Shown piece after piece: positions 20,201-22,937 of a stretch of 22,937 nt of DNA. Made by a program: the position numbers and the translations under genes. The notes beneath the pieces were generated by a model that worked only from the letters and a program-made list of their open reading frames with translations, did not search any database and had not been told where the DNA came from. Origin of the DNA: a virus; IMG/VR virus record IMGVR_UViG_3300024346_000545, positions 1 through 22,937 of that record. One strand, written 5' to 3'. Position 1 is the stretch's first letter. Every line of letters begins with the position of its first letter.

Positions 20201-20903
20201 ACGAATCGTTGCATCAGCAAACTTAACACCTGCAACTTCACCCGAAGGATATATAAACGGAAGTGCATATACTAAGAGATTGGATAATGACTTTATCACT
20301 TTAAATGATAATGCATTCTTTGGTTTCCCAAGTGTTGTTGCCTCATCAATTAACGAAAGTAACGAGATGAGTGGTAGTAAATCATTTACAGTTGTATTGC
20401 AAATGCAATCTACTAACTCAAACGTATCACCAGTTGTGGATGTATCATCTATTGGTGTTATTGCAGTTGGTAATAGATTGAATGAAATTAATAGTGCTAG
20501 TGACCTTTCTATTGCTAGTGACTTTGTCCCATCAACAGAAAGTGATGCTGACAATAATGCAATGGTATATTGTACTAGAAAGGTGAATCTAAAAACTCCT
20601 GCATCAACTGTTAAGGTTATTGCAGATTTCTTTAGACCACCAACTACAGATTTAAAAGTTATGTATAAAGTATTGACAAATGATGACTCAACACCATTTG
20701 ATGATTTGGGTTGGTCATACTTTAATACAGATGGTTCTGCAGATATTACTACAGAAAGAGATGCAAGAAACTTTAAAGAATATGAGTTTACTGCAGAGAA
20801 CTTACCCGAGTTCAGTGCATTTGCAATTAAGATTGTGGGACAAGGAACAAACACTTCAGTAGTACCGTTGGTATCTGCTCTTAGGTGTTTAGCACTTGCA
20901 TAA
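14295..20903 (+). CDS. Giant peripheral baseplate/fibre protein (2202 residues), DUF4815-like N terminus
   Basis: The N terminus (SPYYDDYNENNNFHKVLFRA, then GRALQSRELTQSQSILQNQV and ERFGSHMFKEGSIVQGA) is the pattern I associate with DUF4815 proteins of large tailed phages. Further landmarks: beta modules near residues 480-545 and a 33-residue tandem pair at 833-898; a helical stretch NRVTNLERITSLSLLEKDTQ near 1133-1152; a Trp-rich GTVWNSWQTTWVGEPT near 1298; a hinge at 1526-1573 with 16 prolines in 48 residues; and a jelly-roll-like segment about 1598-1752 beginning DPLAQSFMVESNGGMFVSSI, common in baseplate and fibre proteins. It takes the place of T4 gp9-gp10, without visible similarity to them. 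AGGA at 14287-14290 precedes the ATG. No late box lies between the terminator and this gene. Its role at the baseplate rim or as a fibre is inferred. Confidence 0.75.
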   Translation: MAEKTDLNVSPYYDDYNENNNFHKVLFRAGRALQSRELTQSQSILQNQVERFGSHMFKEGSIVQGAQTDVNMELYYVKVNSANPNATGDTNAETYRTSFHGKFLQGKTTGVVAKVITSSAETSDDSLTIFVKYLTQGTDTGNSFSFTTTEELQEVTVDDAGVISVVSNNYNEFTVATETTINIVNGRASIANISEGIMFIRGFFVKVPAQELILEKYSGSPSYRVGLSIVESSVDSATDISLNDNATGTTNENSPGADRLKMSLTLAKFSLATTDDTDFVETMRINNGIIELEINKTMYNNIENTLARRTFDANGDFVVSQFTHSLREHLDDSTNRGFYAKAQGGDEGQFVMQVSPGKAYVKGYEIDKVGTTTIPFSKARSTVSLDNANTPIRIGNSLKVFNTHSLPEFGNESGDDAMSPFAPCELWDSSVTSAGTKPTTNMIGYARVRNIDLDSGSDSSDVYTNASIFNLYMFDIKMFTKLSGTLSGTFSEGDKVVANNGATGIVSHTSSGQLFLHDVVGTFAVGNTITTEGVTSGTTTVTAVRSYNVDRARSITQTPKNTNREIFTADLVADSDKVLTGTVTMTASDPTVTGFATKFLTELKEGDIILDQSGNENKVLSVTNDLSLELTDNGTTGFSGNAIRRRVRIFNQDQTVALASWPRDYVSSHTAESIQVRRQQVVSIASNEVQLSTGSNGIFGAKNTDNFTIAVIEASTGYAQGDILNVEDFGGTPQSSGSGQTLTLTGFDSADNGAVLRVTSTITITDPVNRDKTIREARLLKVGSDRTAGGKYGTAYDDREISLGVADVFKIHAVYEGVGGSTPLPPSATFTVSSGTFVNYEKFIGQTSNAHGIIITTGGTTYFYYVSGTFVNAETVVGQTSNAVATLTNVTTGSSNITSRYFFDNGQRDGFYDLGKLTRKTGSAAPSNSILICFDYFTPSGSGDFFDVESYASIEYKDIPVYSPNKVDLGGLEPDGTYELSDALDFRPVCGQILGSSTFGSNNAQDPTTPVDLSTNAQFAPFGYDTGRNFEGSRTGISSTGANATDTPVTGSSFVGDISFYVGRYDKVFLHKSGSFQTSVGTAGLTPLKPKGVDESIELFELYIPPFTLNLNSIRVRSQDHRRFTMKDVARINNRVTNLERITSLSLLEKDTQTKQILDSDGLDRFKSGFLVDNFRGHRVGDVNHPDYNISIDNKLGAMRPKSYQQFFDIGLNTTSSSSYQKTGDLITLPYSESSFVYQDKSSRTINVNPYNVFAFIGNIKLTPGTDVWQDTDQLPEVRINREGNFDAILASNTNALGTVWNSWQTTWVGEPTQVSSEVESTSNGSWNGDPTQGGQWISGEQVTREITETVETQTRTGVTTSVVEDFVETRNDRVVSVTLIPFMRARTIEIDADNLKPNTNHYVFFDNMRVDEYTRPFSATYSQDSGVTASSFLKTDGNGRLRAYFDLPNTNKQRFPTGMREVKITSSFYNLSNPPSSGTEIYQAQGLLQASQTEIVSTRNAKVITGNVGGERSITRRGEILNTMPIDTTAPVIPIDIIPPVIIDPPVSSPILPPIFVPPLVFDDPPVAPFIPTNRGGDKDEFEIRFDFDDIEPRWRDPLAQSFMVESNGGMFVSSIDVFFETKDATLPVSVEIRNMVNGYPGQLVMPFSIATKTPSQVNTSTDGSVATTFTFESPVYLKQNQEMCFVVYSNSNEYNVFISRMGETDLATGQTIAGQPYAGSLFMSQNASTWTAEQTDDLKFNLKKCKFNTTKTPVLKFDNDTLPVHTLQNNPIETFSGQNYVRVINYLHGMYSTTSNVTISGVVGDKLTSVLNIGTPSVTGTPTNGTYNGVATTTSGTGAGVTLDIVVTDSAISSCVIATVGNGYSTSDTLTITNFDGGTADATINIDVVEETLGGIPVSSINATFTAIANIGIDSHTVIPDLSSYDLKAGYTADDSTLGGGSVATSTRDYYFDSVHTMIPSTQVEGTRIVASANLTPATSPEGYINGSAYTKRLDNDFITLNDNAFFGFPSVVASSINESNEMSGSKSFTVVLQMQSTNSNVSPVVDVSSIGVIAVGNRLNEINSASDLSIASDFVPSTESDADNNAMVYCTRKVNLKTPASTVKVIADFFRPPTTDLKVMYKVLTNDDSTPFDDLGWSYFNTDGSADITTERDARNFKEYEFTAENLPEFSAFAIKIVGQGTNTSVVPLVSALRCLALA
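16791..16988 (+). repeat. 99-base tandem duplication (33 residues) in the 2202-residue protein
   Basis: Two adjacent copies with a 99-base period share identical blocks: ACATTCGTAAA at 16800-16810 and 16899-16909, and TGGACAAACATCTAATGCA at 16826-16844 with the matching block at 16925-16943. The protein copies begin SGTFVNYEKFIGQTSNA and SGTFVNAETVVGQTSNA. The period keeps the reading frame. Confidence 0.85.
18870..19013 (+). other. Proline-rich hinge in the 2202-residue protein
   Basis: Residues 1526-1573 contain 16 prolines in 48 positions, mostly as PP pairs separated by Ile, Val and Asp (IDIIPPVIIDPP, ILPPIFVPPLVFDDPP). It divides the large N-terminal part from the DPLAQSF-type C-terminal domains and would act as an extended, stiff linker. 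Confidence 0.8.
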
Positions 20904-21115
20904 TGATTAAGGTAGAAGGACATAGTAATCTTGAAAGAGATGAGAGTTCTTCTGCAATTGTAAGTACTGATTACACTGGGTATCTTGCAGTAAAGAAAAG
21001 AAGAGAATCATTTCAGAACAATAGAGACGATATAAATACATTAAAGGAAGAGGTGGGACAAATGAAAAATTTAATCACCACCCTAATAGAGAAATTAAAT
21101 GGCAAAGACAGTTAA
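20903..21115 (+). CDS. Small helical protein (70 residues), unrecognised
   Basis: The ATG at 20903 shares a base with the preceding stop (TAATG), which is why I prefer it to an in-frame ATG 18 bases upstream inside the giant gene. The N-terminal half (MIKVEGHSNLERDESSSAIV) is polar. Residues 28-69 form one charged helix with a leucine/isoleucine spacing suited to a coiled coil (NTLKEEVGQMKNLITTLIEK). No signal peptide or membrane segment is present. It overlaps the next gene by 17 bases. Sandwiched between two structural genes and translationally coupled to both, it is likely a virion or assembly factor such as a trimerising clip or chaperone, but nothing in the sequence proves this. Confidence 0.7.
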   Translation: MIKVEGHSNLERDESSSAIVSTDYTGYLAVKKRRESFQNNRDDINTLKEEVGQMKNLITTLIEKLNGKDS

Positions 21116-22283
21116 TCAGTTTAGTACTATAGAAGACTTCAGAAAGAAGTATAACGAACTTGCAATAGATGTAGGGGAGAAGAGTGGGTTAAGAACTACT
21201 AACTCTTCTACTTTAGTAGATGCAGTTAATTCACTAGAAGATAAATCATTCTTCTTCCAAGAATTTGTTTATGTTGCAACTGCTGGACAAACTGCTTTTA
21301 GTGGTGACGATTCATTTGGAAACTCTTTAGAGTTCCGTGCAAATAGAATCCAAGTGTTCAAAAATGCACAACATTTAATTGAAGGAACAGACTTCACAAT
21401 TAGTGGTGCAAGTGGAAACAAACACACTATTATAACTTTAACTTCAGGTGCAACAGTATCTGATAAAGTTGTAATCTATTCATTTACAGGTTCTTACTTA
21501 GGAACAAACATTGGTTCAGGCAGTGGAGTTGCAGGACAGTTTACAGAGACTGCTGCAAATACTATTTACAATATCAATGATTCAGGTGTTATTCTAAATG
21601 GAGAAGGTTCTCCAAGTCAAACAACATCATTACAGAGTGGATTCAATATTCAACTTGCAGGAAAGACTTATGCAGAAGATGATATAACACTTGCAAGTGG
21701 TAAAACTCTAACAGCATCAACACTAACAGATGGAACTGCATCTATTTCAGGTGGAGTTGGAACAGGTTTTAGTTCTATAACATCAACATCATTAGTAGGT
21801 GCATTGACAGGTAATGCAACAACGTCATCAACAACAACATCTGTATCAAACCATGCAGTAAGTGGGTTGAGTGATGTACAAACTAGTTCACCACAAAATG
21901 GACAATTAATGGTTTGGAACAATTCTGCAGGATATTGGGAAAACCAAAATGCAGCTGCAACTTTTACAAATGAAGATGCAATGGATGCTGCGGCAGGAAT
22001 GATAACAAGTGCAACACATAGTAACATAACTGTAAGTTATGATGATGCAAATAACACCCTAGCATTTTCTGCAGCTGCACAATATGGTGATTCAGATGCA
22101 AGAAGTGCCATCTCGGGTGGAGAAGGTTTAGTTTATAACTCCTCTAATGGTGTTATGGCTGCAAACACTTCAAATGGAGTTGTTGTAAACTCCGACAATA
22201 TTGAATTAGACTATCAAGTAGTTAGTTCTGCACCAACAACTGTTGGTTCAACATCAACTGGACACTTATGGTTTGTTATATAA
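21099..22283 (+). CDS. Fibre-like virion structural protein (394 residues)
   Basis: The N terminus (IEDFRKKYNELAIDVGEKSG, residues 11-30) followed by FFFQEFVYVATAGQTAFSGD (about 51-70) is a pattern I associate with fibre proteins of marine T4-like phages. T4 gp10 also begins with a comparable NENFDELYYELGD helix and has a QTDFLDVF strand, so a gp10-like adaptor role is possible. Residues about 60-130 are a small beta domain (IQVFKNAQHLIEGTDFTI) also seen in gp7. The middle (about 190-250) is Ser/Thr/Ala-rich with little sequence complexity. At about 255-282 is GLSDVQTSSPQNGQLMVWNN, ending in YWENQ, a common fibre shaft motif. The end is STSTGHLWFVI. The start ATG lies inside the previous gene with only a weak GAGA site. 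I see no catalytic motif. Confidence 0.7.
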   Translation: MAKTVNQFSTIEDFRKKYNELAIDVGEKSGLRTTNSSTLVDAVNSLEDKSFFFQEFVYVATAGQTAFSGDDSFGNSLEFRANRIQVFKNAQHLIEGTDFTISGASGNKHTIITLTSGATVSDKVVIYSFTGSYLGTNIGSGSGVAGQFTETAANTIYNINDSGVILNGEGSPSQTTSLQSGFNIQLAGKTYAEDDITLASGKTLTASTLTDGTASISGGVGTGFSSITSTSLVGALTGNATTSSTTTSVSNHAVSGLSDVQTSSPQNGQLMVWNNSAGYWENQNAAATFTNEDAMDAAAGMITSATHSNITVSYDDANNTLAFSAAAQYGDSDARSAISGGEGLVYNSSNGVMAANTSNGVVVNSDNIELDYQVVSSAPTTVGSTSTGHLWFVI

Positions 22284-22292
22284 GATTATGCT

Positions 22293-22937
22293 ATGTCAGA
22301 TGAAATTTTTATAAATACTGGGACGAGTATACAGCAACCCTTTAATCAGAGAAACCCTGCACAAGGAACTCAACCAGCAGTAGCACAAAGAGTTGCACAA
22401 CAACCTGCAATAACACAACAACCATTTACCTATACTAATAGGTCACCGTTTACATATAGGCATCCTGCAGATGCAAGACAACCTTATATTGCTAATGCGA
22501 GACAACCTTATCCATACATTGCAAACGCACAAACACCCTTTATTGCAAATACAAGACAACCATATCCGTATATTGCTAATGCACAGCAACCGTATCCATA
22601 CATTGCTAATAGTCAAACACCAAGTATTGCAGATGCTAGACAACCGTATCCGTATATTGCAAATAGTCAATCACCAAGTATTGTTAATGCACAACAACCT
22701 TATCCATATATTGCTAATAGTCAATCACCAAGTATTGTTAATGCACAACAACCTTATCCATATATTGCAAACAGTCAAACATCAGTCAATGCACAACAAC
22801 CTTATCCATACATTGCAAACAGTCAAACATCAGTTCCTGCAAGACAACCGTCAACGTATTCACATACAACTGTTACCAATGTAACTGTAAACGAAACTAT
22901 ATCCTTTGGTGAACAAGGGCCGTTATCAGGAACCTTA
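22293..22937 (+). CDS. Tyr/Pro-rich repeat protein (PYPYIAN repeats), 3' end beyond the window
   Basis: An open frame runs from ATG 22293 to the window edge with no stop (215 codons seen). It begins MSDEIFINTGTSIQQPFN, then a Gln/Ala/Pro-rich stretch, then from residue 60 to about 181 an array with seven PYPYIAN units. After the array the sequence becomes THTTV/NVTVNETISFGE-like and strand-forming (about 188-215), probably entering a globular part. Short QPFTYTNR and SPFTYRHP units precede the array and look like distant relatives of the repeat. No lysine occurs in the visible part. I recall similar Tyr-Ile-Ala-Asn-rich repeats in structural proteins of marine phages but cannot confirm this here. 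A fibre or flexible tether role is inference. The ribosome site is weak (TAAG at 22281-22284); it starts 9 bases after the previous stop. Confidence 0.75.
   Translation, partial: MSDEIFINTGTSIQQPFNQRNPAQGTQPAVAQRVAQQPAITQQPFTYTNRSPFTYRHPADARQPYIANARQPYPYIANAQTPFIANTRQPYPYIANAQQPYPYIANSQTPSIADARQPYPYIANSQSPSIVNAQQPYPYIANSQSPSIVNAQQPYPYIANSQTSVNAQQPYPYIANSQTSVPARQPSTYSHTTVTNVTVNETISFGEQGPLSGTL
22470..22835 (+). repeat. In-frame tandem repeat array, PYPYIAN unit
   Basis: Seven copies of PYPYIAN occur, most preceded by A(R/Q)Q and followed by S/A-Q. The spacing changes: 10-residue and 18-residue units early, 18-residue units (54 bases, NAQQPYPYIANSQSPSIV) in the middle, and 16-residue units (48 bases, NAQQPYPYIANSQTSV) at the end. 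The copies beginning near 22685 and 22739 are nearly identical in DNA, so expansion is recent or homogenised. Confidence 0.9.

Follow-up and report, generated by a model that had tools for sequence, protein, structure and literature searches.

The window analysed here, the whole 22,937-base contig of an IMG/VR virus record (IMGVR_UViG_3300024346_000545), carries a T4-like baseplate cluster that encodes a tail tube cap, a wedge protein, a hub/lysozyme and gp25- and gp6-like wedge proteins. Behind the wedge genes lie those for a large phrog_358 protein and for a small virion protein (phrog_473), and then a fibre gene. Over 19-29% of its length, the fibre protein shares 37-41% identity with tail fibres annotated in Pelagibacter phages (Table 1). 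Comparison of gp6 places Methylophilales phage Melnitz (41%), Pelagibacter phage Mosig (39%) and HTVC008M (37%) nearest among cultured phages; no repeat gene was found in 49-kb tail-cluster stretches of these three.

A repeat gene, R1, is the last of the window. Its frame begins with an ATG at 22293 and stays open for 215 codons up to 22937 on the + strand; because the contig is the entire record, the gene is simply cut off at the contig end. The first-pass annotation had described seven in-frame PYPYIAN units of changing length and an absence of Lys in the visible part, and our analysis confirms and extends this observation: the copies lie at 22506, 22560, 22590, 22644, 22698, 22752 and 22800, with spacings of 18, 10, 18, 18, 18 and 16 residues. 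Lys is absent from the 215 residues, and Gly accounts for only 5 of them. The sole other array reported by Tandem Repeats Finder in the window scores 47, against up to 336 in R1. The placement of R1 directly after a fibre-like gene also holds beyond the window, since 25 of 26 distinct R1 starts in relatives are located at most 60 bp from a fibre-type C-terminus. A stop or frameshift just past the window, a possibility raised in the same annotation, is not expected, as the closest relatives (L001-L004, 70% identical) are 414-415 residues long and extend for about 200 residues past the point where the window stops. Within the N-terminal motif, M1, N8, Q14 and Q15 are invariant and I5 and G10 nearly invariant among 17 R1 proteins. 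At the other end, the tip of the window copy appears to be of the L001 type, as judged from 29 residues.

An octamer resembling the T4 late promoter, TATAAATA, occurs five times in the window against 2.1 expected, a count reached by 4 of 100 shuffles. One copy is found at 21031-21038 (+), about 60 bp ahead of the fibre gene, and another at 22310-22317 (+), within the first codons of R1.

Table 1. Features at the 3' end of the window, ordered by position.
Feature	Position	Strand	Evidence
Small structural protein of the virion (70 aa), two genes before R1	20903..21115	+	phrog_473 'virion structural protein', E 7e-15
Tail-fibre gene encoding 394 aa, with C-terminal ..GHLWFVI; 9 bases separate its end from R1	21099..22283	+	Pelagibacter phage fibre similarity; also present ahead of R1 in relatives
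R1 repeat protein, first 215 codons	22293..22937	+	Open frame; 70% identity over residues 1-213 to relatives whose full length is 414-415 aa
R1 conserved N-terminal motif MSDEIFINTGTSIQQ; presumed attachment end	22293..22337	+	Invariant residues in 17 R1 proteins
R1 repeat zone of even-length [QR]xP blocks; Pro opposite in parity to aromatics	22338..22856	+	Block list; parity count
Tandem array with seven PYPYIAN copies	22478..22834	+	Tandem Repeats Finder rows, scores up to 336
Apparent start of C-terminal tip module, L001 type, cut by contig end	22857..22937	+	29 aligned residues, 65% identity to L001

Two-residue alternation in the repeat zone

Split at [QR]xP, the repeat proteins yield blocks between 4 and 20 residues long, in most cases 6, 8 or 10. 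This explains the 10-, 16- and 18-residue units noticed at first, which are sums of finer even-length blocks of 6, 8, 10 or 16 residues, each beginning with [QR]xP. Block distances are even in 3248 of 3250 cases in the first 102 proteins and in 8974 of 8990 in 279 sequences, Pro occupies one parity (38 exceptions in 10,333) and Tyr, Phe and Trp the other (58 exceptions in 11,142), all of these being counts in which related sequences are not independent. An even length is found in 1965 of the 1979 distinct block strings and an odd one in 14. Pro and aromatics were on opposite parity in every one of the 102 proteins first examined, and residues 16-156 of the window R1 (141 residues) follow the same rule, as all 24 Pro share one parity and all 18 aromatics have the opposite one. 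As a control, 236 ORFs without repeats from these loci gave an even fraction of 0.51 for Pro-Pro distances and 0.49 for aromatic distances. The parity rule survives many rearrangements, as there are 82 different block orders among the 102 proteins, and the distinct indel segments within the repeat zone number 145 even versus 8 odd (of 153).

The alternation spans 75-533 residues, with a median zone of 225 residues. One face comprises Pro, Gln, Thr, Arg, Asn and Ile, and the opposite face Tyr, Ala, Phe, Gln and Ser. Such strict parity may be the signature of an extended, strand-like, two-faced chain, since the common two-residue hairpin turns would flip it. An extended chain measures about 0.33 nm per residue, and the median zone, if fully extended, would be roughly 75 nm long.

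Blocks are gained and lost between otherwise identical or nearly identical proteins: differences of 18 residues separate L074 from L072 and L053 from L054, and differences of 20 residues are found among L012-L016, exact block counts being subject to the fact that short-read metagenome assemblies may miscount repeats. The variable copy number that had been anticipated is therefore observed among near-identical relatives. The accompanying idea of an array-wide active expansion did not hold, as most copies in the window are synonymously diverged. For its seven 10-residue units pS is 0.62 (0.624) and pN 0.08 (0.082), a pN/pS of about 0.13, and most copies are thus old and kept by selection on the protein. 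Likewise, the near identity reported for neighbouring DNA copies applies to the last copies (28/30 and 29/30 bases), whereas earlier ones share 21-25 of 30.

Relatives, paired genes and linked enzymes

We found relatives encoded in 178 stretches of IMG/VR, and a DNA pattern for QQPYPYIAN occurs in at least 119 stretches. Complete relatives have 370-590 residues, in which the N-terminal motif is followed by the repeat zone and then by a tip at the C-terminus. The family has no match in PHROGs, Pfam or NCBIfam, and tblastn with the R1 proteins of the window and of L021 against 50,697 phage records gave no relative; the low-complexity filtering of this search may hide repeats, and the unmasked R1 ends were also without a match. 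A DNA search with the whole window found no near relative, and no PYPYIAN-type motif was encountered in the literature searched. We find no support for placing R1 in a named family of fibres or adhesins. The repeat family has been found so far only in uncultured marine viruses, of a T4-like marine phage lineage, and represents a widespread marine phage family without a protein-family library entry or a cultured-phage match in the collection searched.

Three matches were set aside. The single bacterial one, in a Sphingobacteriales MAG (L086, JAAXIF010000105.1), is a phage contig of the repeat family with the same neighbours, and its presence in that MAG is probably due to misbinning. We ascribe a Pfam 'Cementoin' match on the R4 protein of L041 to chance resemblance among short QxP repeats, and a match to Pseudomonas phage YA3 (L082:2526-3875) concerns a hypothetical protein whose long array of SAASNTG heptads is unrelated.

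In all seven of the longest relative records there are four repeat genes, arranged as two pairs that each follow a fibre gene. R1, with its conserved N-terminus MSDEIYVNTG, and R2, with a conserved C-terminus KIHQSVPT, come after one fibre gene; R3, whose N-terminus has VKTPTGWN motifs, and R4, with the C-terminus RWDG..WP.TP, come after the last fibre gene of the cluster. A second repeat gene follows R1 in 19 of 19 distinct cases. Some relatives have an inserted gene of unknown function, phrog_25854 (L028:8750-9613, L006:8614-9495), after the R2 region and ahead of the following fibre gene; others lack it.

The tips change faster than the rest of the protein. In L006, L008 and L010 the N-terminus and repeats are 99% identical and the tip 63-73%, and at least eight unrelated types of tip module occur among the relatives, while some R3 proteins end in short Gly-rich tails with no tip domain. 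On one contig (IMGVR 3300035135_001487; L055 and L036), the R1 and R3 tips are visibly similar (YPSYTYPYFGYSSG..), which suggests tip exchange between these paralogues.

Past R4, the relatives carry in order a putative glycosyltransferase, an unknown gene, a 2OG-Fe(II) oxygenase, another unknown gene, a second 2OG oxygenase and, shortly after, a neck gene. The putative glycosyltransferase has a weak Glyco_transf_8 match below the cut-off and belongs to phrog_28018, and its relatives are annotated as nucleotide-diphospho-sugar transferase. The first oxygenase has an intact HxD...H motif, and its only PDB match is the prolyl-4-hydroxylase alpha subunit (E 9e-4). By motif scans, the putative transferase and the prolyl-4-hydroxylase-like gene lie behind all 58 distinct R4 genes; conversely, repeats lie upstream of 43/43 hydroxylase-like and 63/63 transferase loci with enough sequence. 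Since the enzyme-side loci comprise the 80 closest relatives, this linkage may be no more than the mark of a single clade. The link of the hydroxylase to the repeats, which at first seemed specific, may not be so, as HTVC008M carries oxygenases at the same site without repeats. The window itself holds none of these enzyme genes, and its phage would be expected to have them by comparison with its relatives.

The oxygenase family represented by L061:9800-10522 is labelled 'DNA endonuclease V' by phrog_274 and several cyanophage records. Its Pfam, NCBIfam and PDB matches and its HxD...H motif point to a 2OG-Fe(II) oxygenase close to prolyl-4-hydroxylase, and the label is probably a database misannotation.

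Possible roles of the repeat proteins

We consider it probable (about 0.6) that R1 is a tail-fibre-associated adhesin, in which a length-adjustable two-faced rod bears an exchangeable receptor-binding tip. As part of the virion, the protein would be anchored by its conserved N-terminal motif on the product of the fibre gene that precedes its own. The repeat zone would form an extended rod with a Pro/Gln/Arg/Thr/Asn face alternating with a Tyr/Phe/Ala face, several chains may pack through the aromatic face, and the C-terminal tip carried by the rod would contact the host. Block gain and loss in even lengths would tune the length of the rod, and divergence and module exchange would tune the tip. 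A stiff extended rod had already been proposed in the first-pass annotation, and the strict two-residue alternation agrees with it, the geometry being here our inference.

AlphaFold2 gave a mean pLDDT of 31 for R1 and 39 for R4, with no strands in the repeat zone; run on a single chain with 17 sequences, it may be unable to yield a confident structure, and its output neither supports nor excludes a multi-chain rod. A beta-solenoid, for which the first-pass annotation had proposed a test, is unsupported by these values, and the PDB holds no solved structure that matches the R1 repeats by sequence. Dense proline is unusual for a regular beta-sheet and speaks against a rod, and the same sequences could be disordered. 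In that case R1 may be a sticky tether, an unfolded chain whose spaced Tyr/Phe and Arg 'stickers' bind cell surfaces or other fibres non-specifically, with the alternation as a by-product of block duplication. The Pro-, Gln-, Asn- and Tyr-rich composition and the very low AlphaFold2 confidence are consistent with this proposal, yet we find it unlikely: disorder gives no reason for even-only spacing, and parity is kept over 1965 distinct units of several lengths and over 145 of the 153 distinct indel segments, beyond copies of one unit.

Fast evolution of the tips has other possible causes than receptor binding. R1-R4 could be whisker-like decorations or spacers of the tail or baseplate with no adhesin role, their tips varying by drift or by diversification unrelated to receptor choice. 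All four genes are indeed within the structural cluster, some R3 proteins have the short Gly-rich tails in place of a tip domain, and phage CBB is known to bear hair-like appendages of 119 nm on its tail (PMC5259590). Nevertheless, tips that diverge fastest on rods that are 99% identical, together with swapped modules, are the pattern expected of host-contact parts, which makes a purely structural role quite improbable in our view. It is harder still to believe in an assembly artefact, or in a repeat that is not expressed as protein. The contig does break off within the repeat gene, and repeats are a frequent place for assemblies to stop, but the frame is open, the low pN/pS holds among the units, and conserved families with a fixed gene order recur in hundreds of contigs from many samples, so that the relatives already refute this explanation.

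Returning to the adhesin with a two-faced rod, the linked enzymes allow a speculative extension in the manner of silk and extensins, to which we give little credence at present: the hydroxylase-like enzyme would hydroxylate the Pro face and the transferase-like enzyme would decorate the Pro face (or Tyr), resulting in a glycosylated two-faced virion rod. If true, such a modified fibre would be a concrete substrate for marine phage prolyl hydroxylases. According to a 2022 survey, the viral use of prolyl 4-hydroxylase remains cryptic (PMC9301287), and the invariable enzyme neighbourhood described above makes the role of the phage enzymes directly testable.

Comparison with known systems

Like the T2/T4-type gp38 adhesin/chaperone, R1 is encoded immediately behind a fibre gene within the tail cluster of a T4-like phage, and it shares with gp38 a conserved N-terminal part and a fast-changing distal part. 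It differs in lacking the glycine-rich motif architecture of gp38 and any PHROG or Pfam profile match to known adhesin or fibre families, and in having a long Pro/Tyr rod.

Some relatives, all outside the window, resemble Hint or bacterial intein-like domains in their tips, namely 20 of 96 R3-like proteins and some R1 proteins (L064:5926-7377, L039, L044, L057, L069, L017, L086). In L064, Vint scores above and Hom_end_hint just below the curated cut-off. These tips start with Cys1 after a GGG linker, contain a TxxH-type block (GGHP/TxxHP) and end in a terminal HN; the visible part of the window copy shows none of this. In contrast to ordinary inteins, the HN is followed by G, M, F, A, R or I and never by Cys, Ser or Thr, so that ordinary splicing is not expected, and cleavage or transfer is suggested instead. 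The papers examined that mention both a Hint domain and a tail fibre deal with inteins in terminase and ribonucleotide reductase, not in fibres.

Collagen-like (Gly-X-Y) phage tail fibres likewise have a repetitive Pro-rich zone of variable repeat number in a fibre-associated phage protein. Their Gly at every third residue is not found in the window R1, where the period is two, not three, and Gly is scarce. Mussel foot protein fp-1 and plant extensins, which are hydroxylated, have short Pro/Tyr-rich repeats as R1 does, and the linked prolyl-4-hydroxylase-like and putative glycosyltransferase genes of the R1 relatives would extend the likeness to a putative modification; to our knowledge, the repeats of fp-1 and extensins do not keep Pro on one parity.

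Silk fibroin (GX)n has no sequence relationship with R1, and its residue classes are Gly versus Ala/Ser where those of R1 are Pro/polar versus aromatic/Ala. In silk, strict dipeptide alternation puts one residue class on one face of an extended strand, and by analogy the repeat zone of R1 displays the same strict two-residue alternation of residue classes. This parity rule is a strong and testable constraint on the structure of the fibre, and a possible design rule for alternating protein materials.
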